A stretch of 37,517 bases of DNA, taken from positions 1 through 37,517 of the IMG/VR virus record IMGVR_UViG_3300044614_002136, one strand, 5' to 3'. Of the stretch, positions 13,664 through 36,749 are shown piece after piece. Position 1 is the first letter of the stretch. Each line of letters begins with the position of its first letter. Position numbers and translations under genes: made by a program. A model generated the notes under the pieces. It made no database searches. It saw only the letters and a program-made list of their open reading frames with translations, and was not told the DNA's origin. The DNA is from a virus.

Positions 13664-14093
13664 ACAAGAGGTAGCTGCACAGAACATAGTCAACGATGCC
13701 TATGGTCTGCAAGATCACGGAGTAGCCTCAAGTCTAGCTGCCTCATCTTACGGACAGATGAGAGCCACTCCTATTGCTCCTCTCACTGTGGCTGACCTGG
13801 TCGAGGCTGACAACAGACTAGCTAGATATCCAGGATATGCAATCAGCTCTGCAGGTTCTTCTGGGTTTGCATATCCTGTCGTAGGTGTGGGTGCGGCAGG
13901 GCAGCAAGAATTTCCATTTACATATGCTTCCTACACAAGCTACGGTTCTACAGACCATATAAGAAACAAAGAAGATGAAGCCAAGCTCAAGAAAGAAGTT
14001 GAAGAACTTCGTAATGAGATTGCAAAAATAAAAGAGCTGCTAAATAATACAGCAAAAATACAGGAGTCAGAGCACAGAAAGATACCAGTCTAG
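13644..14093 (+). CDS. Unknown protein with C-terminal coiled coil
   Basis: Starts inside the 3' end of the metallophosphoesterase gene (20-base overlap). Residues 1-100 are Ala, Ser, Gly and Tyr rich with little predicted helix after residue 30; residues 107-140 form a heptad-patterned coiled coil (EDEAKLKKEVEELRNEIAKIKELL). This suggests an oligomerising or adaptor protein acting with the phosphoesterase. Not recognised. A tRNA promoter follows it. Confidence 0.68.
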   Translation: MEREAIKQEVAAQNIVNDAYGLQDHGVASSLAASSYGQMRATPIAPLTVADLVEADNRLARYPGYAISSAGSSGFAYPVVGVGAAGQQEFPFTYASYTSYGSTDHIRNKEDEAKLKKEVEELRNEIAKIKELLNNTAKIQESEHRKIPV

Positions 14094-14112
14094 TCATATA
14101 TTTTTGGGGTTA

Positions 14113-14126
14113 TTTGTGGTATAATA
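14113..14126 (+). promoter_or_regulatory. Promoter for the tRNA cluster (TTTGTGGTATAATA)
   Basis: This 14-mer is identical to the one at 3077. TATAAT is at 14120-14125 with TGG before it (extended -10). The first tRNA begins about 50 bases downstream. An ATG three bases after the -10 opens only an 18-codon frame that runs into the tRNA and is not taken as a gene. Confidence 0.72.
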
Positions 14127-14175
14127 TTATGAATAGAGTGGGTAAACTTTCCCCCTCACTAGAAGAGAGTAGAAC

Positions 14176-14247
<72 letters not shown>

Positions 14248-14270
14248 CTCTGCTCTTTTTTAGATTCAAT

Positions 14271-14358
14271 GCCGGTGTGGCGGAATGGCAGACGCAACGG
14301 ACTTAAAATCCGTTGGGGAGCAATCCTCGTGTGGGTTCGAGTCCCACCATCGGCACCA
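14271..14358 (+). tRNA. tRNA-Leu (UAA)
   Basis: A class II tRNA with a long variable arm. The acceptor GCCGGTG pairs with CATCGGC, the anticodon stem CGGAC... around loop TTAAAAT gives anticodon TAA, and the T arm is GTGGG-TTCGAGT-CCCAC. The discriminator A at 14355 is followed by an encoded CCA (14356-14358), unlike the other two tRNAs here. It reads UUA and UUG. Confidence 0.93.
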
Positions 14359-14386
14359 CCTTGGTTTAACCTCAACCCTGTTAATT

Positions 14387-14602
14387 ATGAACTCTAGACT
14401 TACGAGCTCTTCGGAATATAAAGATAGCCGGCAACGCAGCAACTCAGTGTTTGGCATTGCGTTCACCGTACTGGCTTTGATCGATTTTTCAACAATTAGG
14501 TTTTTTGACTTGCCTGGGTTTGAAGCCTGTGTTGTATTTCTACTTGGATGCATTTCCTCCATCTTTGCACTAGAGGCAGCAGTAAGACTAAAAATCCTGT
14601 GA
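14387..14602 (+). CDS. Small membrane protein between tRNA genes
   Basis: The ATG at 14387 is chosen because an earlier in-frame ATG (14285) lies inside the Leu tRNA gene. The 71-aa product has a polar N-terminus of about 20 residues and two hydrophobic segments (about 22-35 FGIAFTVLALIDFS and about 45-65 ACVVFLLGCISSIFALEAAV). The stop overlaps the next ATG (TGATG). Function unknown. Confidence 0.55.
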   Translation: MNSRLTSSSEYKDSRQRSNSVFGIAFTVLALIDFSTIRFFDLPGFEACVVFLLGCISSIFALEAAVRLKIL

Positions 14603-14835
14603 TGCCTCATAAAGTAAAGGTGACGGAAGAGTATCGGAGTTTGAATGTCTCTGTGTACAGAGTGAATACCTACCGTAAAGGTGAGTTTTTGCTTTTATAC
14701 TACGGAGATCCTTTCAGCTCTTCGCCAGATATTGAGGTGTATTGGAGCACTCGCACAGAGCCTGTCAGTCCAGGCTCGTCAGAGTACACAAGCGCCAAAA
14801 ATCATGTGGCCGAGTTCTTGAACAAGCATCGGTAA
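14602..14835 (+). CDS. Small soluble protein between tRNA genes
   Basis: The ATG at 14602 overlaps the stop of the previous gene as TGATG; an ATG at 14548 in the same frame is less likely because it would overlap by 55 bases. The 77-aa product looks beta-rich (VTEEYRSLNVSVYRVN, GEFLLLYYGDP, IEVYWSTRT) with a short C-terminal helix. Not recognised. It lies directly before the Arg tRNA. Confidence 0.6.
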   Translation: MPHKVKVTEEYRSLNVSVYRVNTYRKGEFLLLYYGDPFSSSPDIEVYWSTRTEPVSPGSSEYTSAKNHVAEFLNKHR

Positions 14836-14840
14836 AAAAC

Positions 14841-14912
14841 GCACCCATAGCTCAACGGACAGAGCAGCGGATTTCTAATCCGTTGATGAAGGTTCGATTC
14901 CTTCTGGGTGCA
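14841..14912 (+). tRNA. tRNA-Arg (UCU)
   Basis: Acceptor GCACCCA/TGGGTGC, D stem GCTC/GAGC, anticodon stem GCGGA/TCCGT around loop TTTCTAA (anticodon TCT), T arm GAAGG-TTCGATT-CCTTC, discriminator A. No CCA is encoded. It reads AGA and AGG; AGA is visibly the favoured Arg codon in the genes of this window. Confidence 0.94.
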
Positions 14913-14923
14913 CTTTTTCGCAG

Positions 14924-16153
14924 ATGAGAAATCCTCTTGATGTCATGGGCACGCCTGAAAAGGTTGCTTCGTACGACAAGCTAGATGTTTATCTTGAACC
15001 GTTCATTCGAGATAATTTTTCAGTAGATAGCCAGATCTTTACGATGCCTGCCTGTTCTGGAGAGCAGGAAAGAGAAAGAATTCTAGATAGGATTCTCAGG
15101 CTCGAAAAAGATCGTGGCGAATCAAAGCTGAAGCTCCACACGTTCGACTATGAATATCTCAAGGAAGATACAGGGATAGGAGAGTATCCAGAACGATTAT
15201 GGGAGCACCATGTAGGCGACATATTCCATTCATTGTTAAAGAAAGGATTTGTCGAGAAACCCACCTTTGCCTGGTTTGATTTAACAGGACCACTAACAGA
15301 TGGTAACCTGAGTAATATTCAAGCCTGCATCACCAAATTGTGTTCAGTGAACAGTTTTATAGCAATCACACTTGCTGTGCATGCTGTTCAAGGAATACAA
15401 CCAACCAGCAAGGCTGCAGTTGCTTATAGTTTAAATTGTCTTAGCATCGAGGATAAAATCGAGATGACAAGCCAGTTGCTTATAGACGAGGTAGCGCAGC
15501 ATAACAAAGCTCTAGTGGAGAAGTTCGTCTTTTCCTATAGAAAGAAAATAACTACGTTCTGTGTATTCGGATATGTAGTCACCCAACCCAAACAAAAAAT
15601 GCTAGAAACAACGTTTGAGAGATCAGTAAGTCAGCAAGAAAGTCATAACCCTATGGAAGGTTTGATGCTTCTTGAAAAAGCTGTCGAGGGCATGAAGATT
15701 CTGAGAGGCAAGCGCGAAGAATTGCTCTCGGAAATTGCAAAGATCGACGAGCAGTTGACAAAATACACAGGCCTGCTTGGAAGCATGCAGGCTCTTGTGG
15801 GTGTGAGTGTGCCGGTAACTGCACAGCAAACCAATCCAGTCAACGAGCGTTGCTCTGCCCTCGAGCGTGAGATTCTTGGTGCTTTTGTGGATACAGATTC
15901 ACAGAACTATCACAGTATTCTGCTCACCAAAGAGGATATCATCGAGCAGCGCGACATCAGTCCTCAGCAGCTGAATAGTTGGACATACACAACCAACAAG
16001 AAAAAGCGTTTGATCGAGAAGATCGGCAACAAGTATAAGCTCACCGCCAAAGGGTGCAAGTTTATCAAGGAGCAGGATATTTCTCCAGCAAACACAGAGA
16101 GCTTCACAGCAACCACAACTTCAGTGACAACCGCAGTAACAACCCAAGCATAA
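14924..16153 (+). CDS. Possible SAM-methyltransferase-fold protein with C-terminal winged-helix-like domain
   Basis: A 409-aa protein. The N-terminal half reads like a Rossmann-type methyltransferase core: an early strand with FTMPACSGEQERERI, an acidic strand end HTFDYE, then HVGDIFHSLLKKG and the strand TFAWFDLTGPLTDGN followed by a helix and the strand SFIAITLAVH. The classical GxGxG SAM loop is not obvious, so catalysis is uncertain. Residues about 245-290 form a coiled coil (EGMKILRGKREELLSEIAKIDEQL). The region about 310-390 looks like a winged helix ending LIEKIGNKYKLTAKGCKFI. The tail is Thr rich. Judged by eye only. Confidence 0.55.
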   Translation: MRNPLDVMGTPEKVASYDKLDVYLEPFIRDNFSVDSQIFTMPACSGEQERERILDRILRLEKDRGESKLKLHTFDYEYLKEDTGIGEYPERLWEHHVGDIFHSLLKKGFVEKPTFAWFDLTGPLTDGNLSNIQACITKLCSVNSFIAITLAVHAVQGIQPTSKAAVAYSLNCLSIEDKIEMTSQLLIDEVAQHNKALVEKFVFSYRKKITTFCVFGYVVTQPKQKMLETTFERSVSQQESHNPMEGLMLLEKAVEGMKILRGKREELLSEIAKIDEQLTKYTGLLGSMQALVGVSVPVTAQQTNPVNERCSALEREILGAFVDTDSQNYHSILLTKEDIIEQRDISPQQLNSWTYTTNKKKRLIEKIGNKYKLTAKGCKFIKEQDISPANTESFTATTTSVTTAVTTQA

Positions 16154-18094: not shown

Positions 18095-20977
18095 ATGCAT
18101 TCTATAAGAGAGCTATTTGAAAAGATCGCCCTTGCTCATTCAGTGTCTCCGAGTGTTCCTGGTATGGTGGCACAGAATCATCTGGGGGTATTGCCTCAGC
18201 AGGTAGGTGTGCCTGTAGCTCGAGGCAACCCAATGACCACGTCATTTAGCGTAGCAGACAAAAACTTCAAACCTGTACAGAGTCCCACAGTTCCTCAACA
18301 AGGAGCACCAAAACCTCAAGCACCTCCAAGCAATCAGCCGCCTCCTGCTCCTCAGCTGAGTGGCACTAATGCATATAGATCAGCAGCTACTCAACCCATC
18401 AGAACACCAAGCAGAAAGACTGCAGAGTATAGAAGAAGCACAGGGATTATAGATGTGAATGGTGAGGAGTATACAAATCCCGAAGACCTGGAGCTGCTGG
18501 GCAAGCTTGGTTATGATCTGGATATTGAGGAATACACTGGATTGGAGAAAAGCGCCGAAGTACTAGACATATACTCGTATATCGAGAAGGTGGCAGGGGT
18601 ACCTAAAGAGGTGGCTAAGCTTATAGACAAGGGAGAAGCATTCAGTGGTGAATATCTCAAGGATATGGGATATAGTGTGCCTGAAGGGTATGAGGTGAAA
18701 GGTGACTTGTGTTTTCCTGTTGAAAAAACAGAGCAGTCTTTTCAACAAACTGAAAAGAACGAAAAGCAGTCTGGTGAGCGGCCTGGTTTATGGGCAAATA
18801 TTCATGCAAAAAGAAAGCGTGGAGAGAAAGCAGCTAAGCCTGGAGACGAGGATTATCCAGACAAGAAACAATGGGATAAGCTGAGTAAAGAAGGAGCAGC
18901 TGATCCAAGTAAGACTATACTGGTTACAGGACACAGCGGAGCTGGTAAGAGCACACTAGCTAAAGCGCTAGCAGAGAAATTAAATATTCCACTACATAGA
19001 GTAGATGCTCAGGAGAGCTGGGACAATCTAAGAGCAGATTTAGAGAGTAGACCTGACTATGAAAGACTCGCTCTAACTCCAGGTTCCGCTGAGAATAAGC
19101 AGTATATCAAAGATATTCGAAAGATTGTAGGCAAGTCTCTGAAAGAGATGGAGGGTCCAGCTGTTCTTGAAGGTACACAGGTAACCACACTAGGACCAAG
19201 ACAGCTCAAAAAATATATGGCTAATGTTCTTGTGGGTGGTGACGTTGAGCAGTCTATAGCTCAGCGGTTGCAGCGTATGACAGACAAAGCAGCTAAAAAA
19301 GGAATAACCTTATCTCCTGAAGATCTAGATAGAAAAATGCTAGAGTCCAGAATGGTAGCTGACTCGTGGAGTCCAGGAATGGAGAAGTTTAAAAAGGTTC
19401 CTGGTGTAATTAATTATAATCACACAGAGCATGAGGTAGAGCCTTTGATAGAGCAGCTGCGTGCACTGATGAATAAACAAGCTGCTGCCGATCCGGCGCA
19501 ATCTATTCTAGTCACAGGACACAGCGGAGCAGGAAAAACTACACTGGCGCAAACGATAGCTGAAAAACTTGGTCTACCTTTGCATAGTGTGGATAAGCAT
19601 CCTGAGTTTAAAGAATATGTTACTAAAGATGACCACGGACGCTGGCAAAAGTCGCTAACCCCAGGCACAGACGAGCACAAGTTCTATACAGACCTTGTAC
19701 ACAGAGCAAACAAGCACACTATAGATAACAGTCCTCCCGCTTCAATTATTGAGGGAGCTCAGTTAGGACATATGACTCCTGAAGAGCTCGCAAAATATAG
19801 AGCACATATTCTTGTGGGAGGAGATCCTGAGCAAAGTATAGCTCAAAGAATTGCTCGCTCAGCTAAAAAGAAAGGTGTCACATTTTCTCCAGAAGAAATT
19901 CTAGAAAAGCAAATGAAAGCGAGAGCGGTAGTAGACTTCTGGGAGCCTGGAATTGAGAAGTTCAGGAAGCTTCCAGGGGTTATCAACTATAATCATACAG
20001 AGCATCAGATAGAACCTCTAATTTCTCAGCTGCGTGCACTAATGAGCAAACAAGCAGCTTCTGCAGCCAGTCAAAGCAAACCTGTTACAGAACATAGTGA
20101 ATCGATCACAGAGAAACAGGCAATGACTCTGTCGGCTAGTAAAAACATACTAAGAAACTTTAAAGCCTCTGGAGGTAAATTGCGTAGAGTTATGGGCACT
20201 TCAGAATACTCGCCTATTGAAAATATGATTCAAATAACTGGAAAATATAGAAAAGACGGATTCTCCCCACTTGCGAAGTTCTGGCACGAATATGGACATT
20301 TTTTAGATAAAGATAAGGTACTGGAGGCATACAGGCAAATGACTACTCATCCTTCGGCTATGACACAAGAGCTTAAAACTAAAATGCCTGCAGTTTCACT
20401 ACAACTAGAAAACACTGCAAATACGAATGCATTGAGAGAGATGCAACGGCTCGGAGTTCCTGAAGCTCTACAGCAAAAATACACACCTACTGCAAGTGCA
20501 GGATATAATACATACCGGACGGGGACTAATCTAATTGCACCATTACAGGATTTCATACACACCGAAGGGCTCACACTTCCTCAAAGTCTAGATGTTAGCC
20601 TCCCTGACCACATGGCGGCTGTGCAAAAATTTAATCAGTCGGCTATGCCTATAATGGCTCCCATAGGAAAATATATGTCACAAACTCTTGAGAAAATTTC
20701 TCCAGAGTTTGATCCATTTAAAATGGTTGGCCGTCCACTATCTAAAAATTTACGGAAAAATAACCCTGGGTTTGATAAATCATTTAGAGAATACCACGGT
20801 AAGTTCAAAGAACCTTTGAGCTTACCATATGCCGGACCTCCACAAGCAAATGTAAAGCAAGGGTCAGGCAGATGCTGGGAAGGCTATGAACCTGTTCCTG
20901 GAAAAGAAGCATATAGTGAGGATAGTTGCAGACCAAAAACTGAAAAGAAAAAGCCTAACGCAGACAAAGAGAAATAA
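18095..20977 (+). CDS. 960-aa fusion: two P-loop kinase-like domains plus HEYGH metallopeptidase-like domain
   Basis: Order of parts: an N-terminal helix LFEKIA (7-12), a Pro/Gln-rich linker (about 55-105), a small domain with YIEKVAGV (162-169), and a basic GLWANIHAKRKRGE segment (231-244). Then comes P-loop domain A (about 274-460, GHSGAGKS 279-286), P-loop domain B (about 470-652, GHSGAGKT 475-482), a C-terminal domain with the zinc-peptidase motif HEYGH (731-735), and a tail with CWEGY...DSC (927-945). Domains A and B are a clear tandem duplication: both share LVGGD.EQSIAQR, FSPE or LSPE, PGVINYNHTEH and QLRALM.KQAA. They may be kinases or AAA-type NTPases; the substrate is unknown. A virion or injected protein is likely from context. 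Confidence 0.78.
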   Translation: MHSIRELFEKIALAHSVSPSVPGMVAQNHLGVLPQQVGVPVARGNPMTTSFSVADKNFKPVQSPTVPQQGAPKPQAPPSNQPPPAPQLSGTNAYRSAATQPIRTPSRKTAEYRRSTGIIDVNGEEYTNPEDLELLGKLGYDLDIEEYTGLEKSAEVLDIYSYIEKVAGVPKEVAKLIDKGEAFSGEYLKDMGYSVPEGYEVKGDLCFPVEKTEQSFQQTEKNEKQSGERPGLWANIHAKRKRGEKAAKPGDEDYPDKKQWDKLSKEGAADPSKTILVTGHSGAGKSTLAKALAEKLNIPLHRVDAQESWDNLRADLESRPDYERLALTPGSAENKQYIKDIRKIVGKSLKEMEGPAVLEGTQVTTLGPRQLKKYMANVLVGGDVEQSIAQRLQRMTDKAAKKGITLSPEDLDRKMLESRMVADSWSPGMEKFKKVPGVINYNHTEHEVEPLIEQLRALMNKQAAADPAQSILVTGHSGAGKTTLAQTIAEKLGLPLHSVDKHPEFKEYVTKDDHGRWQKSLTPGTDEHKFYTDLVHRANKHTIDNSPPASIIEGAQLGHMTPEELAKYRAHILVGGDPEQSIAQRIARSAKKKGVTFSPEEILEKQMKARAVVDFWEPGIEKFRKLPGVINYNHTEHQIEPLISQLRALMSKQAASAASQSKPVTEHSESITEKQAMTLSASKNILRNFKASGGKLRRVMGTSEYSPIENMIQITGKYRKDGFSPLAKFWHEYGHFLDKDKVLEAYRQMTTHPSAMTQELKTKMPAVSLQLENTANTNALREMQRLGVPEALQQKYTPTASAGYNTYRTGTNLIAPLQDFIHTEGLTLPQSLDVSLPDHMAAVQKFNQSAMPIMAPIGKYMSQTLEKISPEFDPFKMVGRPLSKNLRKNNPGFDKSFREYHGKFKEPLSLPYAGPPQANVKQGSGRCWEGYEPVPGKEAYSEDSCRPKTEKKKPNADKEK

Positions 20978-20978
20978 T

Positions 20979-21353
20979 ATGAATCAAAACAACCTAAAAG
21001 AGTACGGTATAGATGTAGGTTTACTCATGAGTGGGTTGTTTGGCGCTATATTGCTTACAAGTAAGGATACAGCGGTAAACTTAACAAGAACAATATCTAG
21101 TTTAATAGGAGGAGCAGCCAGCGCTAACTATCTAACTCCTATTGTGGTTAACGTAACAAAGTTAGACAATACACACTACCACTATGGAATAGCTTTTCTG
21201 CTTGGTTTCCTTGGACTGAGAGGCATCGAATATTTTAGTCGAAAAATCATTCCAGAGTCTGCGCACAAAGAGCTGCATGAAAGTGCACAAAAGACAGCCT
21301 ATTCTTACAGAAGAAGAAAGCCCAGGAAAAGAAATGTACCAAGGATAGACTAA
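20979..21353 (+). CDS. Holin-like membrane protein
   Basis: The ATG at 20979 (one base after the previous stop) is preferred over an in-frame ATG inside the previous gene. The 124-aa protein has three hydrophobic segments: IDVGLLMSGLFGAILL (about 11-26), TISSLIGGAASANYLTPIVV (about 37-56) and YGIAFLLGFLGLRGIEYF (about 68-85). A very basic tail follows (YRRRKPRKRN). The order GIDVGLLMSGLFGA, then GGAASANYLTP, then FLLGFLGLRGIE recalls a family of phage putative holins. It is distant from the endolysin, so it may be a second holin or a virion channel. Confidence 0.6.
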   Translation: MNQNNLKEYGIDVGLLMSGLFGAILLTSKDTAVNLTRTISSLIGGAASANYLTPIVVNVTKLDNTHYHYGIAFLLGFLGLRGIEYFSRKIIPESAHKELHESAQKTAYSYRRRKPRKRNVPRID

Positions 21354-21721: not shown

Positions 21722-22993
21722 ATGAACAGACGTGAATTTCTATACACAGGATTGTTTGGTGGACTAGGCTTGAGTCTGGGAGACGTGCTTAAACTACAGG
21801 CAGAGTCTGCAACAGTTCCAAAGGCTAGCTCGGTTATTCATATATTTCTTCCTGGCGGAGCAGCCGCACAGGAAACATGGGATCCAAAAATAAACGCTCC
21901 TTCTGAGTATAGAGGACCTCTAAAATCTGTAGCCACAAGCATCCCAGGAATACATTTCTCTGAGCATCTGTCCAAAACAGCTAGAATTGCGGACAAGCTG
22001 ACTGTTGTACGTTCGATGACCCACGGCGAAGCTGCGCATGAGCGAGGAGTAACTAGTATGTTTACAGGTTACAAGCCCTCTCCTGCTATAACCTATCCAT
22101 CTTTTGGTTCTGTAATATCTCAACAGCAGGGAGGAAGAAACAGCCTGCCTGCATATGTCTGTATACCTCAAAAGATGGAGAATAACGGCACAGATGCTCT
22201 TGGCGCAGGCTTCTTGCCCACAGCATACGGACCATTCAGTCTGGGAAGCGATCCTGCAGCCGAGGGATTCAAGGTAAGAGATCTTTCATCAAACGTATCG
22301 GAAGAGCGCTTTGACAGAAGAAGGTCCATACTCGATACAGTGGACAGTCATTTCAGGTATCTAGAAAAGAGCGACTCTTTGTCTGCTATGGATACTTTCT
22401 ATCAGCAGGCATATGACCTTATAGCTTCTCCAAAAGCCAGAGAGGCCTTTGCAATAGATCGTGAGACTCAGGCTATGCGAGATGCTTATGGAAGAAACCA
22501 GGCAGGTCAGCGACTTCTTATGGCCAGAAGAATGGTAGAGGCAGGGGTTAGATATGTGTCTGTTACCTACGGCGGCTGGGACATGCACACAACAATAGGC
22601 AACGGCATAAGCAAGGCTCTACCTGCTTTTGACCAGGCCTACTCCACCTTGATAACTGATCTCGAACAGAGAGGCATGCTAGACTCTACACTGGTGATGA
22701 TCAGTTCTGAATTTGGACGCACTCCAAAGATCAACAAAGATGCAGGTAGAGATCACTGGCCTAGAGTGTTCTCTGTTGTTTTTGCAGGAGGAGGCTTCAA
22801 AAAAGGACTAGTGTATGGTCAGTCTAGCGTCACAGGAGATGATGTTGATGAGAAGCCTGTAACAGTAGAGAATCTCGCTGCCACACTATACCATCAGATA
22901 GGCATCAACCCTGAAGGTACTCTTGAAGGAGGAGGCGGAAGGCCTGTAAAAATCGTGTATAACGGAAGTGTTATGCACGACCTGCTCACCTAG
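21722..22993 (+). CDS. DUF1501 family protein with Tat signal (first copy)
   Basis: A Tat-type signal starts MNRREFLYTGLFGGLGLSLG. The 423-aa body carries the DUF1501 signatures: HIFLPGGAAAQETWDPK (40-56), EHLSKTARIADKLTVVRSM (81-99), the paired His of THGEAAHERG (100-109), GGWDMHTTI (284-292), SEFGRTPK (329-336) and GRDHWPRVFSVVFAGGG (342-358). DUF1501 belongs to the alkaline-phosphatase-like superfamily and is usually exported and of unknown substrate. In family members the first motif normally has D where QETWD has E. Such proteins are abundant in Planctomycetota and Verrucomicrobiota and unusual in phages. The family call is strong. Confidence 0.9.
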   Translation: MNRREFLYTGLFGGLGLSLGDVLKLQAESATVPKASSVIHIFLPGGAAAQETWDPKINAPSEYRGPLKSVATSIPGIHFSEHLSKTARIADKLTVVRSMTHGEAAHERGVTSMFTGYKPSPAITYPSFGSVISQQQGGRNSLPAYVCIPQKMENNGTDALGAGFLPTAYGPFSLGSDPAAEGFKVRDLSSNVSEERFDRRRSILDTVDSHFRYLEKSDSLSAMDTFYQQAYDLIASPKAREAFAIDRETQAMRDAYGRNQAGQRLLMARRMVEAGVRYVSVTYGGWDMHTTIGNGISKALPAFDQAYSTLITDLEQRGMLDSTLVMISSEFGRTPKINKDAGRDHWPRVFSVVFAGGGFKKGLVYGQSSVTGDDVDEKPVTVENLAATLYHQIGINPEGTLEGGGGRPVKIVYNGSVMHDLLT

Positions 22994-23152
22994 TCACCAG
23001 TGGCGTATTATTCCAGCAACGATGAAGATGTTGGTGATTATATAGCAAAAAATAATTAAAGTTCTTATTATTGCTATTTGATCTGCAATTTCATTGTCTT
23101 TGTGAGACTTTTCGCCAATTGCCTTGGACCATATATACCAGATACGTTTCAT
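22994..23152 (-). CDS. 52-aa membrane protein on the opposite strand
   Basis: A complete frame from an ATG at 23152 to a TGA at 22996-22994 fills the gap between the two DUF1501 genes; its stop abuts the stop of the first copy. The peptide starts MKRIWYIWSKAIGEKSHKDN, then a helix IADQIAIIRTL and a hydrophobic segment IIFCYIITNIFIVAGIIRHW. The pattern (KAIGEKS, then IRT, then a membrane helix ending RHW) recalls a tiny conserved phage membrane protein, so it is likely real despite its size and orientation. It is the only minus-strand gene in a 27-kb plus-strand run. Confidence 0.6.
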   Translation of the reverse strand: MKRIWYIWSKAIGEKSHKDNEIADQIAIIRTLIIFCYIITNIFIVAGIIRHW

Positions 23153-23180
23153 AAGTAGATTATACAAACCACAAAAGACT

Positions 23181-24539
23181 ATGCAAGACTGCGGTAATCA
23201 CGACACTAATCCTACAACTAGAAGAGAGCTGCTCACCAAGTTTGGCTGGGGCCTTGGGGGTCTTTCACTAGCCTCACTGTTCGGTGTTTCAACATCCGAG
23301 GGAGCAAGCCCACTGCAACCAAAAAATCCTCACTTCCCTGTAAAAGCAAAGGCGGTGATTCATCTTTTTGCTACAGGGGCACCCTCTCATCTTGATACAT
23401 TTGATTTTAAGCCAGAGCTAAAAAAAAGAGATGGAGTGAATGATGGAGGAGGACAGCTGCTTGCTTCTCCTTTTGAGTTTCCACGATTTGGCAAATCAGG
23501 TCTAGAGATATCTGAGGTATGGTCAAAGCTGGGTAAACATGCGGATGATATGGCTATCATCAATTCTATGCAGACAGATGTGCCAGACCATGGCATTGCT
23601 CAAAAGATGATGAGCACAGGCTCTACACAGCTGCCAAAGCCAAGCCTAGGTTCATGGCTCGTGTATGGTCTTGGAACCGTGAATCAGAGCATGCCAGGCT
23701 TTGTAACCTTGAATGGTGACGCTACCTGGAGGCAATGCGCTTTTCTTCCAGGCATGTATCAAGGGTGTAACATAAACTATAAGCTCGGTATGAGAGCAGA
23801 AGAGGCTCTCAACAACATACGCAGCGAGTTCTCTACTCTCGACAGGCAGAGAAGGCAGATAGATTTCTCAAAAATGATGAATCTCGATCACATGAAGCAG
23901 CTGCAAAGAGATGTGCAGCTAGAGTCTAGAATAGAGGCTTTTGAGGTGGCTTTTAAGATGCAGACTGAGGCTACAGATGCTTTTGACCTCAGCAGAGAGC
24001 CTGAGACAATAAAAGATTTGTATGGACGCACAGAAGAGGGAGCAAGAATGCTGCTTGCTCGTAGGCTTGTAGAGAAAGGGGTGAGGATGGTTCAGGTAAA
24101 TGTGGGAGGGTTTGACCACCACAGCGACATCAAAACAAACATGACTAGAACAGCAGGAAGATATGATCAGGCATTTAGTGCGCTGCTCACAGACCTCAAG
24201 CAAAGAGGCTTGCTAGACTCTACACTAGTGATTTGGGGAGGTGAGTTTGGCAGAACGAGCATTGCTGGAGGAGGGGCTGGGGCACCAGGAAGAGATCATA
24301 ACGGCAAAGCTTTTAGCATATGGATGAGTGGAGGTGGTGTAAAAGGCGGACAGAAATACGGAGAGACAAATGAGATCGGCTCGACATCTGTGAAAGATGT
24401 GGTACATGTTCACGATCTCCACGCTACAATACTGCAGCTCATGGGGTTTGATCACACAAAGCTAATCTACGAGTATAACGGCAGACCATTCAGGCTTACC
24501 GATGTATTTGGAAATGTAATAAAAGAAATAATCGCTTAA
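23181..24539 (+). CDS. DUF1501 family protein with Tat signal (second copy)
   Basis: The ATG at 23181 is chosen because it puts the Tat motif TTRRELLTKFGWGLGGLSL (12-30) near the N-terminus; an upstream TTG at 23124 would lie within the antisense small gene. The 452-aa body has the canonical first motif ATGAPSHLDTFDFKP (64-78), VPDHG, GGFDHHSD, GGEFGRTS and PGRDHNGKAFSIWMSGGG. It differs from the first copy throughout, including an insert-rich middle, so the two are diverged paralogues and not a recent duplication. Its stop overlaps the next gene's ATG (TAATG). Confidence 0.9.
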   Translation: MQDCGNHDTNPTTRRELLTKFGWGLGGLSLASLFGVSTSEGASPLQPKNPHFPVKAKAVIHLFATGAPSHLDTFDFKPELKKRDGVNDGGGQLLASPFEFPRFGKSGLEISEVWSKLGKHADDMAIINSMQTDVPDHGIAQKMMSTGSTQLPKPSLGSWLVYGLGTVNQSMPGFVTLNGDATWRQCAFLPGMYQGCNINYKLGMRAEEALNNIRSEFSTLDRQRRQIDFSKMMNLDHMKQLQRDVQLESRIEAFEVAFKMQTEATDAFDLSREPETIKDLYGRTEEGARMLLARRLVEKGVRMVQVNVGGFDHHSDIKTNMTRTAGRYDQAFSALLTDLKQRGLLDSTLVIWGGEFGRTSIAGGGAGAPGRDHNGKAFSIWMSGGGVKGGQKYGETNEIGSTSVKDVVHVHDLHATILQLMGFDHTKLIYEYNGRPFRLTDVFGNVIKEIIA

Positions 24540-24985
24540 TGAGGCATAAAACGCATGAATGTTCCATATGCGGAAAGATATGGAACAGAGAGACAGAAAG
24601 AATGAGACAAGGCAAAACCTGCAGCACGAAATGCGCTAGCATAAAAGGCTATTTGTCTGGAGACAGGAAAGAAACAAGCATAGAGCTTAAGCTACAAGAA
24701 ATACTAGCTGCTCTAGATATAGCATTCGTCACTCAACAACCGCTACTAGGTATTACTGTAGCAGACATATTTATAGCTCCTAATGTGGTTGTTTTTGCTG
24801 ACGGCACCTACTGGCATAGCGGAGCAATGAAAGAGTATAAAGACAGAGAAAAGACCAAGAGGCTTGAGAAAGCAGGCTATGTTGTGCTTCGACTGGATGA
24901 AAAAGAAATAAACAAAGATGCAGACGCAGTTAAAGAAAAGCTGCTAGAGGCTTACGGAAAGAGAAAGGTATCAAAAACTCTTTAA
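24539..24985 (+). CDS. Vsr-like PD-(D/E)xK endonuclease with N-terminal zinc finger
   Basis: Residues 8-32 form a Cys4 finger (CSIC ... CSTKC). The catalytic part begins ETSIELKLQEIL (about 46), then VADIFIAPNVVVFADGTYWHSG (about 79-100). This matches the Vsr-type core in which an Asp precedes a strand ending FxDGxxWH, with the ending AGYVVLRLDEKEIN (about 116-129). Related nucleases include very-short-patch repair enzymes and free-standing phage homing endonucleases. The 1-base overlap with the DUF1501 gene shows it is co-transcribed. A homing role would fit a mobile cassette but is inference. Confidence 0.78.
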   Translation: MRHKTHECSICGKIWNRETERMRQGKTCSTKCASIKGYLSGDRKETSIELKLQEILAALDIAFVTQQPLLGITVADIFIAPNVVVFADGTYWHSGAMKEYKDREKTKRLEKAGYVVLRLDEKEINKDADAVKEKLLEAYGKRKVSKTL

Positions 24986-24995
24986 TTTTTTATAT

Positions 24996-25009
24996 TTGGC
25001 TGCTATTAT
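24996..25009 (+). promoter_or_regulatory. Promoter-like element TTGGCTGCTATTAT
   Basis: TATTAT (25004-25009) with TGC before it gives an extended -10, 19 bases before the ATG at 25029. It resembles the element at 4796. The start of an extended frame at 24996 is not used, because the ATG at 25029 lies downstream of this element. Confidence 0.42.
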
Positions 25010-25028
25010 TAGAACAACCGCAATAACT

Positions 25029-25547
25029 ATGAATAACATCGAAAAATCTTATCTGTACGGCTTTGTTAAAAAGGCAAATGAGTTTGGCTATACTGACGAA
25101 CAGGCAGTTGCTCTACTGAAGTCAGCTAATACCGTTCCTGGTAGAATTCCGTCGCCATTGCAGCGGCCACTCATCTCTGGAAATGATGCAGCCTATATTC
25201 AGCAACCAAAGAGAACGCCTCAAGAGGCGTCAGCATCATATATTCAACACAGTGCTTCCCCGTTGAAGCAGATGATGGGTGTGAATGTTCCTTACCCAGG
25301 CTCTAGCCGTCCTGATGCTGTTCGCCCTGGCTGGTCTGGAGAGTCTGTTCCTGTTGGAGGACATAATTTGATGGGGCAAGCCAAACTGAACATTGGCGAT
25401 GCTAATCCCTCCAATGTAAATCCTCTAGGATACAACCATGCTGGAGTAGCGAACGAGATGCTTCAGAATCAGGCGGCTAACATGGGAGGTCCTGGTGCAG
25501 GCTATTTAGGTAATCTTCAAGCTATCAATGCAACAAGTCCTCGATAA
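25029..25547 (+). CDS. Probable virion protein with N-terminal Lys-Ala motif
   Basis: The 172-aa protein opens with a helix MNNIEKSYLYGFVKKANEFG (1-20), then DEQAVALLKSANTVPG. This is the clearest case of the FxKKAxExG/LLKxA module seen in several proteins of this block. The rest is Pro, Gly, Asn, Ser rich and low in predicted structure, as in disordered virion or scaffold proteins. No enzymatic motif. A terminator follows. Confidence 0.65.
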   Translation: MNNIEKSYLYGFVKKANEFGYTDEQAVALLKSANTVPGRIPSPLQRPLISGNDAAYIQQPKRTPQEASASYIQHSASPLKQMMGVNVPYPGSSRPDAVRPGWSGESVPVGGHNLMGQAKLNIGDANPSNVNPLGYNHAGVANEMLQNQAANMGGPGAGYLGNLQAINATSPR

Positions 25548-30707: not shown

Positions 30708-32921
30708 ATGGTTGTTCTTACTGAGAAAATTGCTGACCTTATTGCCGCGACAGTGGTAAATAATCCTGACCTGCTCATATTAGAGCAGAACGGCAGAACC
30801 AAAAAGGTCGACTTCGGTTTGTTGAAGCAGGCTATTGCCGGAGCTATAGGTACAGGAAAAGACGGTCGAGAGATCACTCTAAGAAACAACGGAACATCAA
30901 TTCAGTGGAAGTATACGACAAATGATATTGTCTGGAAAAACCTGCTAGATATATCAAATCTTGTTGTAACAGGTACAGGTAGCGGTGGAGGTGGAGGAAA
31001 CGGTGCGACAGGAGCGACAGGACTTGCAGGGTTTACAGGAGCAACCGGAGCAACCGGACGACAAGGAAGTACAGGACCTCAAGGCAGCACAGGCAGTACA
31101 GGAATAACTGGATCAACAGGAAGTACAGGAAGTACAGGAGCCCAGGGAGCCACAGGCAGTACCGGATTAGCAGGAAGCACAGGGGCAACCGGATTAACCG
31201 GAGCAACTGGCACAGCAGGAACTGGAGGAAGTACCGGAGCTACAGGGCTAGTAGGAAGCACTGGAACAGCAGGAGCCACAGGATTGGCAGGCAGTACCGG
31301 AGCTACTGGACTTCAGGGAAGCACAGGGATTCAAGGCAGTACAGGTAGTACCGGGAATCAAGGTTCTACAGGTGCAACAGGGTTTGGAGCCACAGGGGCT
31401 ACAGGAGAAACAGGTGCAACAGGATTGACGGGAGCCACAGGATCGAAGGGAGATCGTGGTGATGCAGGTGGAGCCACAGGAGCGACTGGTATTCAAGGTG
31501 CTACTGGTCCTGGCGGAGGCGCTACTGGTCCTACAGGAGCAACAGGGATTCAGGGAGCTACTGGTCCTGAGGGAGCCACAGGTGCTGGTGCAACAGGCGC
31601 AACAGGAGTTCAAGGAGCTACAGGTATACAAGGATCGACTGGTCCTGAGGGAGCTACAGGTGCTGGCGCAACAGGAGCAACTGGTATTCAAGGGGCCACC
31701 GGAACACAGGGCGCAACTGGGGCAGGAGCTACAGGAGCTACAGGTCCTCAAGGCGCGACAGGAGTTCAAGGAATTCAAGGAGGATCAGGAGGTGCGGGCG
31801 CAACAGGAGCTGCAGGTGCTACTGGAACTCAAGGAAGTACTGGAGCAACCGGGTCACAAGGAAGCACTGGATCTCAGGGAGCCACAGGCGAAACAGGTGC
31901 TACTGGAACTCAAGGAAGTACTGGAGCAACTGGATCACAAGGAAGCACAGGAAGCACAGGAGCTCAAGGGTCTACAGGATCTGAAGGAGCTACAGGATCT
32001 CAGGGAGCTACCGGAATTCAAGGAAGCACCGGAGCAACCGGATCACAAGGAAGTACCGGGACGCAAGGGTCTACAGGATCTGAAGGAGCTACAGGGGCAA
32101 CAGGGATTCAGGGAGCTACCGGAACTCATGGATCTACAGGAGCCACTGGAGTTGGTGCTACAGGCAGTACAGGTCCAATAGGAGCCACAGGACCCGCAGG
32201 CGGTCCAACAGGAGCTACGGGAGCCACTGGGTATATTTCCATTACAGCTGTAGCAGGCTCAGTAAATACTCAGATTACAGGTAATGGATTTCAATCAGCG
32301 TTTACATTCGACGGATTTAATGGAACAGATCCGGCAAACTATTTCGTAAGTATTGATGGAATAGATCAGATTCCTGGATTGAATTTTACTGTAATTCAGC
32401 ATCCTACGCTTCCTACAAAAGGACAAATAACCCTGTCTTCGGTGCCTTTAAATAACAGTGTTATTTCTGTCAGAGCTCTGATTGGTGGAGTTGCTGGAGG
32501 TTCAGCATCTTTCTCAGGCTTGCTAAATCCTCCTGTGTATGAAGTTCTTTCTAGCACTGCTCCTAATAGTGCAGGACCCACTGTAGGGGTAGCCAGAGGG
32601 GTGGTCTCTTTGAATCTTAACTCATCACAGATATTTAGTCTGCAGGCCGTAAACACCGCCTACACATTAAATGTGACCACACCTACAGGACTAAATGCGA
32701 ACCAAGTTGTGAGTTTTTCTCTTTTTGTTTTTGCTGATGTAAGTACAGGAACAACTGTGTTCGACAGCATATCTATAAATGGAAGCGTTGCTAATCCTTT
32801 ATGGCCTAACGGAGCAAATCCAACAGGCAGTATGGCAGGCATAGACTTTTATGCGTTTACAATAATTAAAAACACATCAGGAGAGTTTTCCCTGGTAGCT
32901 AACCATATAAATTATGTGTAG
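30708..32921 (+). CDS. Collagen-like tail-fibre or surface protein
   Basis: A 737-aa protein. Residues 1-95 form a globular N-terminal domain ([40 protein letters not shown]) suited to virion attachment. Residues about 98-508 are an unbroken run of about 135 collagen-like triplets, mostly G-[A/S]-T and G-x-[Q] types with few Pro and almost no Lys (one GSKGDRGD). Residues about 509-737 form a beta-rich C-terminal head, probably the trimerisation and receptor-binding end. Triple-helix fibres of this kind are known in phages, Bacillus spores and giant viruses. Thr-rich repeats may be O-glycosylated. Confidence 0.85.
30999..32231 (+). repeat. Collagen-like Gly-X-Thr triplet repeat region
   Basis: The region consists of 9-base units and their multiples such as GGAAGTACA and GGAGCTACA, encoding G-S-T and G-A-T triplets. 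DNA-level similarity across units means recombination could change the number of triplets. It is not a CRISPR array: there are no uniform spacers and the frame is coding. Confidence 0.85.
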
Positions 32922-32954
32922 CTTTAATAAATTTAACTAGTTAATATATCCTTC

Positions 32955-35900
32955 ATGAGTACTCCATTTAACAAGCCAGACGCAGGAATGCTTGATCTAA
33001 TCGGCGATGTGGTTGCCGCTTCAGATGGAACGTCCACAAAAGTTGTTAAAATTCAAGGAAGACCGCTTGCTGATGTGAGTCCTTCTCCTGGTCAGGCAAT
33101 GACCTGGGATGGAGCTAGCTGGACTCCTGGAGCAGGAGCTGGGAGGCAAGGAAGCACTGGAGCAACAGGGATTCAGGGAGCTACCGGACTTCAGGGAAGT
33201 ACCGGTGTAACTGGAGCTACAGGGCAAAAAGGAGACCAGGGACCTCCTAACGGAGCAACAGGAAGTACAGGGATTCAAGGAAGTACAGGAAGTACTGGAA
33301 GTACTGGAGTGCAAGGATCTACTGGAGTGCAAGGAAGCACCGGAAGCACAGGTCTGCAAGGAAGTACAGGACTACAAGGCAGCACAGGAAGTACTGGAAT
33401 AACCGGATCAACAGGAAGTACAGGGATTCAAGGAAGCACAGGTCTGCAAGGAAGCACAGGACTGCAGGGAAGTACAGGACTCCAGGGAAGTACAGGAAGC
33501 ACTGGAGTGCAAGGTGCTACAGGAACGCAGGGAAGCACAGGACTCCAGGGAAGCACAGGGCTACAAGGAAGCACAGGAAGCACTGGCGTGCAAGGAGCCA
33601 CAGGTATACAAGGTTCTACTGGACCTCAAGGAGCGACTGGCTCTGGAGCTACTGGAGTGCAAGGAGCCACAGGACTACAAGGAAGCACAGGAAGTACCGG
33701 ACTAGGGCATGCAGGACTAACCTCAGCATCGAGTCTCACTATAGGTACAGGGAACAAAGCGTTTACAACAAGTCTCGGATCGTCAGCTACCGCGTTTAAT
33801 GTGGGAAGTCGTGTTCGTGCCGCACACACAGCCTCTCCTGAAAACTACATGGAAGGCACTATTACGGCTTTCGCTGGAACTGCTTTAACTTTGTCTGTTG
33901 ATGTTGCGGCAGGTACAGGAACGCTTACTCCGTGGACTTTTAGCATCGTCGGGTCTGCAGGAGCAACTGGAGCGACTGGAGCACAAGGAGCGACTGGAGC
34001 ACAAGGAGCGACTGGGTCTCAGGGACCTGCAGGCCAGTCGACAAGCTTTTACAACTATCAAATAGATACCGCTGTTTTTCCTACCCCTGTAGGTACATTT
34101 AGTGTCACAGGAGGACATATATATTATAACACAGCCACTCAAATTGCAGCTACTAGCATACTAGTGTCACATAAAGATGTCTCTAATAACGACATTGATA
34201 TGTTTTTGGCTCTGCTAAAGAAAGACGACGTTTTTGTGATTCAACAAAAGACGGATTCTAGCAAGTCTCAGAGATGGACTGTAAATGCTGCTCCTACACT
34301 AGTTGATAATAATTATATACTTCTTCCTGTTACCCTTACCGGAGGAACAGCCGAATTCAATAACAATGACGCTGTTCTTTTTGCTCCTGTGTCTGGAGGA
34401 TTGGTTGGAGCTACAGGAGCTCAGGGAGCTACAGGAGCTCAGGGAGCTACAGGTCCAGGAGTAACTCTTCCTGTATCCATAGGTTCAGGAGGAACAGGAG
34501 CAACAGGAATTTATGAGGCATTAAATGCCCTAAACAGTCCCATATACTATGTTAACGTCGCACAGATAGGAAACCTATCAGGTGTGATGACAGGAGACAC
34601 GTACGCCACAGGCAATCTAGCCTCGCCGATCACCTTTGATACGGCGTATAGTCCGCCGGTTAATTCTGTCATTCTATTTACTGCCCAGACAAGCAATATT
34701 CAAAATGGTTTTTGGATTATTACTTCTCTTGGAGGAGCAGGAACGCCTGCTACGTTTGAGAGACCTCCGTGGTATAAAGGCACAGTCAGAAGTGGTGTTT
34801 TGGCCTATGTACGCTTCGGATCAACTAGAGTAAACTATATATACAATGTATATTCTGCTACTGTAAACTCAGACATTGTTGTGGGTAATACAGGTATCAG
34901 CACAGTAGTCATAGGGCAGAGATCAACCAATACCACAACTGCAGGCAACACATATATAGCAAGACAGACATTCGCTCCAGGTTCTACCACAGGATCTCCT
35001 ATTGGATTTCAGGCTGGCGTGCTATTACAGACTCCAGCTGCTCACGCTGTAGAATGGGATAGTAATACGCTTTATGTTACAGGAAGTACCCCGTTTTCCA
35101 ACGTAACAAATAACGTCGCTAGAACTAACCTTGTTAGCGAACAGCTTCCTTATGGAGGAACTATCCCAGGAGCAACAGGATTCTCTCCTGCTTCATTATA
35201 CTATGCTGCAGCCTATAGCGAAACCAATATTGCTGCTACGACAACTGCAAATCAGCTTTATACCGCAGCAGGTCCTCTTGTAATAGATGGCTACACGGTA
35301 CTAGCTAACGATTTGGTTCTGCTGGGAGCACAAACAACAACTCCAGCACAGAGAGGTTTGTGGAAGGTTGTTTGTGCAGGCTCTAACTACACAGGACTTG
35401 CTGCTGCCAGCTCGACCACAACACTGACCATGAGTAACGGAGCTGGAACTCCTCTCAGTCTCAACTCATATCTTCTGGGTGTTGGAGGAGCAAACAACAT
35501 ATACATCGCAAGCACAAACAACACGTTCTACGGCACTGTTACAACAACAAGCACAACAAACTCACTTAGTTTGAATAACTGCAGTGGAACTCCTCTCACT
35601 GTAGGTGTTGGAATTCAAGGATTAGGTATTCCAGCAGGAACAACAGTCACAGCTGTTACATATTCACTGAGCACCACAGTGTCAGCAACAGCAACGAATA
35701 CGACCTCTTTCTCAACAACTGGAGGCAATATTCTGCCTGCAGGCACATTTATTCAAGGAGCAGGGATACCTCCGAACACATTCATCGTCTCAGGAACAGG
35801 CGCACCATATACTGTTAATAATTTGGTTAATTTGACTGCAGGAGCCACGGTAACGAATAATGCAGTCACATGTACCACGAGCAATAATGTGAATATAGCT

Positions 35901-36749
35901 GCAGGGTTGCTAGTAAGCTTTAGTTCCTCGACATACACAACAAACACAACTCTCAGCATAGGAGCCAACACAGCGGTCACAGCTCCTACTGTATTGGCTC
36001 GTCCATTGTCCTTCTATCAAGGAAATTTATACAGAGGCCCTTTCCTGGTCAGTGTATACAGAGGAACAAAATACTCTGGATACATGTTCTCTATGTACAA
36101 CAGTGCAGCAGGGAACGCGACAATGATTCCCAATACTACCACAACGATTGAGGCTAGTATTGTGAATGCAAAGACAGCTAATAATGGAGCCACAGGAGCC
36201 ACAGGTCCGCAAGGAGCCACAGGCTCTGGAGCCACAGGAGTTCAAGGAGCAACCGGATTAACTGGAGCAACTGGAATTCAAGGATCTACAGGACCTGGCG
36301 GGTCAGCAGGAGCTACAGGACTTCAGGGTGCTACCGGGCTAGTAGGGGCCACAGGTGCGGTAGGGGCAACAGGACTAGTGGGAGCTACAGGAGTATTTGG
36401 AGCCACAGGACTTCAGGGAAGTACAGGCCCATATAGTGCTCCGAGCACCAGAACAGTAAGTTCTGGCACAACCGACGCACTGCAGACGACAGATGCAAAC
36501 AACACAGTATACTACACAGGAACAAGCGCAGTCACAATCACCGCACCTGTAGCTACAAATGTTGCTCAAGGAACGCAAATAATTCTAGTTAATGGTTCTG
36601 CGAGTGCGCTTCACACTGTCTCCTCGGCAAACGGCGTTGTTTCTGCAGGAGGGAGATATAAACTTGCCCAGCAGTATTCGACTGCTGTGCTTCATTGTGT
36701 ATCAACAACTCCTGCTGTGTGGGTACTGAGCGGAGATCTTATCGTATAA
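32955..36749 (+). CDS. Large multi-block collagen-like fibre protein
   Basis: A 1264-aa protein beginning with a short N-terminal domain (1-62, [18 protein letters not shown]). Collagen-like blocks lie at about 63-251, 335-360, 485-503 and 1078-1160, separated by beta-rich domains. The large one, about 504-1077, has a repeat-rich Thr/Asn segment around 820-1010 ([21 protein letters not shown] is typical). The C-terminus (about 1161-1264) resembles a fibre head: [20 protein letters not shown], then an ending with [16 protein letters not shown]. Short collagen blocks as hinges between folded domains suggest a long flexible fibre. Confidence 0.82.
33141..33711 (+). repeat. Collagen-like triplet block 1 of the large fibre
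   Basis: About 63 triplets, dominated by GSTG, GLQGSTG and GVQGSTG units, with many 18-base direct repeats (GGAAGCACAGGACTGCAG type). One GQKGDQGPP interruption is near the start. Confidence 0.8.
36186..36437 (+). repeat. Collagen-like triplet block near the C-terminus of the large fibre
   Basis: About 27 triplets, with units such as [17 protein letters not shown] and GLVGATG, preceding the C-terminal head domain. Confidence 0.75.

Follow-up and report, generated by a model that had tools for sequence, protein, structure and literature searches.

Genes and features of the locus

We analysed a 37,517-nucleotide stretch of viral DNA (hereafter the window), positions 1 to 37,517 of the IMG/VR record IMGVR_UViG_3300044614_002136. 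At its centre lies a 960-aa ORF, P0001, which opens with ATG and contains no internal stops (Table 1). The encoded protein is 100% identical to copies in two more IMG/VR contigs, L001 and L002, and L001 (IMGVR_UViG_3300042468_001259) represents the same virus as the window (99.99% identity across 30.5 kb aligned). The initial annotation had described one chain holding two P-loops, an HEYGH motif, the GLWANIHAKRKRGE module and a CWEGY..DSC module, and all of these were found where it had placed them.

Table 1. Features of the multi-module ORF and its neighbours in the window
Feature	Residues (aa)	Coordinates	Strand	Basis or remark
Whole ORF, multi-module protein P0001	1-960	18095..20977	+	Identical in L001 and L002
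N-terminal peptide MHSIRELFEKIA, proposed head-targeting sequence/propeptide, KxA at end	1-12	18095..18130	+	Proposed role
Pro/Gln-rich spacer, ends SRKTA	13-110	18131..18424	+	Sequence; KxA list
Conserved N-terminal module, family marker, invariant YIEKxA	111-215	18425..18739	+	Alignment A4, 12 contigs
GLW module GLWANIHAKRKRGE	231-264	18785..18886	+	PHROG_11180/16028/22379
P-loop kinase module 1, GHSGAGKS	268-462	18896..19480	+	Alignment A3; Pfam AAA_18 and others
KQA junction, kinase 1/kinase 2	461-463	19475..19483	+	Proposed cleavage
P-loop kinase module 2, GHSGAGKT	464-653	19484..20053	+	AF2; Foldseek
KQA junction ahead of HEYGH module	674-676	20114..20122	+	Proposed cleavage
Putative zincin-type metallopeptidase core, candidate third ligand E772	677-810	20123..20524	+	Alignment A6
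CWEGY..DSC C-terminal module	927-950	20873..20944	+	Copies in other contigs
Next gene, holin-like, start probably MNQNNLKEYG		20979..21353	+	PHROG_2359; neighbour kept in G003, G009
DUF1501 gene 1		21722-22993		Pfam 6e-112
DUF1501 gene 2		23124-24539		Pfam 9e-128
Separate ORF with proposed head-targeting tag YLYGFVKKANEFGY..ALLKSA		24996..25547	+

The holin-like gene begins directly after the 960-aa ORF. Other genes in the window include an RNA ligase/tail-fibre attachment gene, an exonuclease, collagen-like tail fibres, three tRNAs and a portal-like gene with a weak match. Judged by its DUF1501, RNA ligase, collagen-like fibre and tRNA genes, the window comes from a large tailed phage and holds part of that phage's genome. 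Two very long tail-fibre genes with collagen-like GATGATGxx sequence occupy 30708-36749, and more collagen-like genes were found in the L001 contig (39696, 40694). A small DUF559/Vsr-like endonuclease gene at 24539-24985 has counterparts adjoining tagged cargo ORFs in the related contigs G003, G006 and G009. The head genes and head protease of this virus lie outside the window and none were found in its 62.5-kb contig; likewise, the capsid gene of the phage group described below has no homologue within the window.

The DUF1501 gene pair is also found downstream of the polyvalent-protein gene (see below) in G003 (137836, 139110). The closest homologue of the first DUF1501 gene among 84,980 genomes was 66% identical, and its top matches were mostly from Verrucomicrobiota (Chthoniobacteraceae, Spartobacteria; MAGs), followed by Planctomycetota, phyla in which this family is frequent. 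Since Verrucomicrobiota predominate among these matches, the host of the virus is likely verrucomicrobial.

P-loop kinase modules

The Walker A motifs GHSGAGKS and GHSGAGKT lie at aa ~278 and ~474, respectively. HMM scans place the similarity of the two repeats (53% identity) far beyond chance, in line with the earlier description of tandemly duplicated P-loops, but a recent tandem duplication is disfavoured. Repeat 2 is nearer to a kinase of phage L042 (79% identity) than to repeat 1, and the codons of the two repeats mostly differ even where the residues are identical; on these grounds, the kinase pair seems either to predate this virus or to be independent of it.

An alignment of six kinase copies from five phages (A3, whose positions are used for residue numbers here) identified the Walker A motif, Asp37, Glu90/Gln93, Gln121/Arg122/Arg125 and a YNH[TS]EH tail as common features, with Walker A and the other conserved residues intact in 6/6 copies. 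The AF2 model built with this alignment (pLDDT 88.2, pTM 0.84) predicts a complete kinase fold, and this, together with the intact Walker A motif and the conserved Asp and basic residues, supports the P-loop part of the initial annotation. Foldseek searches of the PDB matched the model, at TM-scores of ~0.5, to adenylate, uridine-cytidine, shikimate and gluconate kinases (adenylate kinase 3adk at 4.4e-7; 6pwz at 7e-7), and nucleotide/AAA-type kinases were matched among viral models. Because of these matches, the modules are assigned to the small-molecule type of P-loop kinases on the basis of Walker A and the predicted fold. Pfam matches were near the cut-offs and no one family was dominant; for example, the zeta toxin kinase family (PF06414) scored 17.2 and 17.9 bits with the separate modules, below its 22.3 cut-off. 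A kinase profile found no relatives in 84,980 genomes, and no homologue of the module was found in 50,697 phage records. The kinase pair looks new.

The HEYGH module

The HEYGH motif (aa 731-735) belongs to a module with relatives in three other phages (G003:135358-136395, L006 and L048), of which L006 and L048 have the orders tag-GLW-DUF6321-peptidase and tag-GLW-peptidase-DUF6321. In an alignment of these four divergent proteins (A6), HExGH and a downstream ExxANxNA are invariant, while the other sequences are only 27-34% identical to the window copy. The candidate third ligand, E772, falls inside ExxANxNA, and HExxH..E at such spacing is the usual zinc site of zincins. It is likely that this domain belongs to the zincins and is a putative zinc peptidase. 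The zinc-metallopeptidase-like character first read from HEYGH gains support from the conservation, in four proteins, of a module that combines the motif with a Glu at some distance from it. Single-sequence AF2 modelling of the region was of low confidence (pLDDT 39.6). Pfam gave no matches to the region, and PDB sequence searches, including one with the four-member profile, returned nothing significant. A tblastn match (H2) in a faecal phage was dropped, as the long ORF there is a conjugation-type ATPase without HExxH.

Module sharing and shuffling

The conserved N-terminal module was found once per contig in 12 contigs, followed by varying downstream modules, and had no homologue in 50,697 phage records. 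Kinase modules occur in the window (twice), L003, L040, L042 and L051, and HExxH modules in the window, L003 and L005. KTSC modules were identified by Pfam in L006, L042, L043, L047 and L048, MazG modules exceeding the Pfam cut-off in L040, L043, L047 and L051, and DUF6321 modules in L003 and L005. The order kinase-kinase-peptidase was found solely in this virus, while single modules are shared with other phages. The combination that was first remarked on is outweighed by the modularity itself: the theme common to the family is one N-terminal module with interchangeable cargo.

The short modules, earlier described as tag-like, do recur as mobile units. The GLW module, which begins with GLWANIH at aa 231, was found again in >25 contigs, and copies of CWEGY that are 65-96% identical occur in L005, L008, L043, L051, G003 and G009. 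In addition, small ORFs carry lone modules preceded by an N-terminal tag that recurs among them, AYIxGFVKRAxEYGYSxxEAxELLKxA; the ORF G009:60455-60652 consists of the proposed targeting tag and CWEGY, and nothing else. Scars of lost modules were observed in L005 (2490-5831), where the kinase-module tail EHQAEPLIKQLQQLMSKKAEA is present and the kinase itself absent, and where a KTSC start, HELKSSNIKAVGY, is joined directly to an M14/AstE-like module. Readings by eye of RelA/SpoT, ART and GNAT modules in L040, L047 and L042 were unconfirmed by Pfam, and AstE in L047 reached E = 0.038 at best. The C-terminal part of L040:7560-11483 (NDLLGFRV..DGYHGWNI..PVEFQM) is RelA/SpoT-like by eye, with no Pfam report.

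K-x-A motifs at module junctions

What had been taken for a Lys-Ala helix corresponds to a recurring K-x-A motif, present at ten places in the window protein (aa 10, 108, 152, 165, 245, 398, 461, 652, 674 and 937). Four of its module junctions carry strict K-x-A, among them the kinase 1/kinase 2 junction, LMNKQAAADP; those ahead of GLW and of kinase 1 carry K-x-S, and the one ahead of CWEGY has neither. K-x-A also occurs inside folded modules, namely at aa 398 in kinase 1 and in the N-terminal module. Across the family, K-x-A lies no more than 15 residues upstream of the module start in 23/29 cases, against 5.5 (maximum 15) at random positions of the same proteins in 5000 draws, the 29 starts sharing ancestry and so not being 29 phylogenetically independent events. 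The same junction mark precedes differing modules with differing upstream partners, as in HLMGKEA/EYKW, SELEKEA/EYKW and PVAKKEA/EYKW or NKQAA/ADP, EKTAA/ADP and EKKAA/ADP (a slash marks the junction).

The motif is found within the first 60 aa of 11/12 family members, where shuffling expects 4.9. Over the whole ORF it is weakly enriched (7 vs 2.75, in a narrower form), as it is over the whole family (148 vs 110), and in cargo gene clusters taken whole it is not the top pair. The signal sits at the junctions and in the head proteins.

Head genes, head protease and cultured relatives

G003 (184 kb), G006 (150 kb) and G009 (204 kb), which are long contigs of related phages, allowed the head genes of the group to be analysed. 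K-x-A is the top one-gap pair in their head gene clusters (99 vs 51, 83 vs 52 and 86 vs 44, respectively) and not in the remainder of G003 and G006, and the enriched head genes include ones without any peptidase module. In six G003 head proteins, 56/76 K-x-A motifs are kept in G006 and G009. Per protein, 62-100% of the motifs were conserved; the corresponding figures were 14-55% among the remaining K-x pairs and 22-62% among the remaining x-A pairs, and K-x-A came out higher in 6/6. Among the products of the head cluster is a head-maturation protease (PHROG_18299, 1.8e-9), which was found in 4/4 long family contigs searched (G003, G005, G006 and G009) and in G003 (14077-15525) lies inside the K-x-A-rich cluster. 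Far from the head cluster, G003 also encodes a K-x-A-rich protein (L057:14103-15161; G003:54103-55161) with 15 motifs where 2.4 would be expected; it has conserved counterparts in G006 and G009.

The only cultured relatives that we found are distant ones, Salmonella phage Arash and the Vibrio phages D69/D181/D148, whose capsid protein and head-protease homologues are 27-29% identical (27-28% for the capsid protein). K-x-A is the top one-gap pair in the structural proteins of Arash (58 vs 32). In the capsid proteins of both Arash and G003 it stands just ahead of the conserved core, with VKEA/GAAMSAFVRQKLRE of Arash (capsid protein gp226) aligned with KKAAVSAQSFTRNKLRE of G003. The published virion proteome of Arash (PMC10585845) could already hold K-x-A cleavage sites (L097; Arash 128000-160000).

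The gp21-type protease Peptidase_S77 had no matches in 13 family contigs, in a search for which T4-like contigs served as positives; it is present in the long T4-like contigs searched (G014-G017). In T4-like contigs the GLW module follows [LIV]-x-E (VNE/ESEGLW, LDE/EGLW), and in L016 the CWKGY module, which is related to CWEGY, follows LTE/A. Between these two lineages, whose head proteases differ, the mark ahead of the GLW module thus differs as well, being that of the K-x-A group in the one and [LIV]-x-E in the T4-like phages, so that the mark seems matched to the lineage. Among the T4-like contigs L009-L028, GLW and CWKGY modules occur in precursors of large T4-like phages (e.g. L016:7248-9086).

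Proposed function and alternative explanations

Based on these analyses, we consider it probable that the ORF encodes a phage polyvalent cargo polyprotein that is packaged into the head, cut by the prohead protease at K-x-A and ejected. The prohead protease is proposed as the processor because K-x-A occurs both at the module junctions and in head genes beside the head-maturation protease, and virion delivery is the best-supported setting. The N-terminal part of the protein would guide the chain into the prohead during assembly, where the head-maturation protease would cut it after Lys-x-Ala into the N-terminal module, GLW module, kinase 1, kinase 2, peptidase and CWEGY tail. The freed modules would then leave the head together with the DNA and enter the bacterium. 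The most likely task of the kinases would be to phosphorylate a small metabolite, whether a nucleotide or another one, at an early stage of infection; in relatives, the corresponding slots are taken by MazG, KTSC and further modules. The HEYGH domain, probably a zinc peptidase, may be one more cargo or may serve in self-processing.

The last role leads to an alternative in which the protein is packaged and injected but cuts itself with the zincin-like HEYGH peptidase, the prohead protease having no part in this, following the model of Iyer et al. No domain is commoner in polyvalent proteins than such peptidases, self-processing has been proposed for them (PMC5512222), and HExGH..ExxANxNA is conserved here. 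However, four members of the N-terminal-module family (L004, L040, L042 and L047) keep their K-x-A junctions with HExxH undetected, and head genes devoid of any peptidase module show the K-x-A enrichment too, which makes processing by the HEYGH domain unlikely in our view. It seems equally improbable that the protein is an unpackaged intracellular enzyme of nucleotide metabolism whose K-x-A motifs reflect mere flexible linker composition. Kinase and MazG modules both indicate nucleotide chemistry, and Lys and Ala are frequent linker residues. Nevertheless, such an enzyme would hardly be fused to non-enzymatic modules (GLW, CWEGY, DUF6321 and the N-terminal module) and proposed targeting tags, nor does linker composition fit the selective conservation of K-x-A in head proteins or the lineage-matched [LIV]xE ahead of the GLW module in T4-like phages.

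The initial annotation had suggested an injected effector that modifies and cuts host targets, taken here as host proteins on which the kinases and the protease would act as one chain. The kinase fold and HExxH are both there, and injected ADP-ribosyltransferases such as T4 Alt provide a precedent (PMC9026906). This reading appears very unlikely, since the fold matches are to small-molecule and nucleoside-phosphate kinases, not protein kinases, relatives carry MazG, and the modules are also found apart and in other combinations. Finally, a virion structural or scaffold protein with inactive remnants of enzymes might be considered, given the GLW and CWKGY modules in T4-like precursors from contigs with the gp21-type protease, but the intact Walker A and conserved residues in all six kinase copies and the invariant HExGH..E make this the most implausible of the explanations.

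Beyond the single protein, we tentatively suggest a cassette system, a broader idea that we regard as possible but doubtful. Unrelated phages would share GLW/CWxGY cargo separated by the mark of their own prohead protease (K-x-A, or [LIV]xE in T4-like phages); the marks and a tag would make any module an injected one, and shared junctions would drive swaps. If this is true, the K-x-A rule, the part likely to surprise specialists, would let the injected proteome of the group be read straight from genome sequence. If the packaging and K-x-A processing proposed above are real, a readable code of targeting tag and K-x-A cut would predict the injected proteins of a large, mostly uncultured phage group that probably infects freshwater Verrucomicrobiota, and polyvalent proteins would have a processing mechanism that differs from the proposed zincin self-cleavage.

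Comparison with known systems

Polyvalent proteins, described by Iyer et al. (2017) from phages and conjugative elements, are single large chains of 2-15 disparate domains with cassette-like variability, for which packaging in the head and injection have been predicted (PMC5512222). The window protein shares with them at least two disparate domain types per chain (P-loop kinases, HExxH, GLW and CWEGY, with KTSC, MazG and DUF6321 in relatives) and a shuffled architecture around a common domain (12 contigs with the N-terminal module and differing cargo). By its architecture it is a polyvalent protein; its presumed transfer into the host with the DNA is supported indirectly by K-x-A, the tags and the head protease. 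On the other hand, the kinases of polyvalent proteins are truncated and of the Ser/Thr type whereas those in the window are of the small-molecule P-loop type, KTSC and MazG go unmentioned in the main text of that paper, and the K-x-A mark at the junctions points to the prohead protease instead of the zincin self-cleavage proposed there (PMC5512222).

The internal head proteins of T4 (IPI-III and Alt) have a capsid-targeting sequence, are processed by gp21 and are ejected with the DNA (PMC9026906). The likeness would lie in a short N-terminal targeting peptide, the protease cut and the ejected cargo, all three proposed for the window protein; the window family differs in its K-x-A site, in having the PHROG_18299 protease and not Peptidase_S77, and in the many modules per chain. 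In SPN3US (phiKZ/SPN3US type), head ejection proteins are cut after AXE by gp245 (PMC10052503). A motif of the P3-x-P1 type, many internal proteins and multiple cuts per propeptide would be common to both, the likeness of AXE/LxE presuming the same P3-P1 logic for K-x-A. The motif itself and the protein families are different, and in SPN3US the cuts free propeptides, not enzyme modules. Arash and D69/D181/D148 share capsid and head-protease homologues with the group, and Arash the K-x-A enrichment as well, but no homologue of the N-terminal or kinase modules was found in them or elsewhere among 50,697 phage records. Overall, injected multi-domain proteins are already known, and it is the mark at which they would be cut, along with the kinase pair, that looks new.
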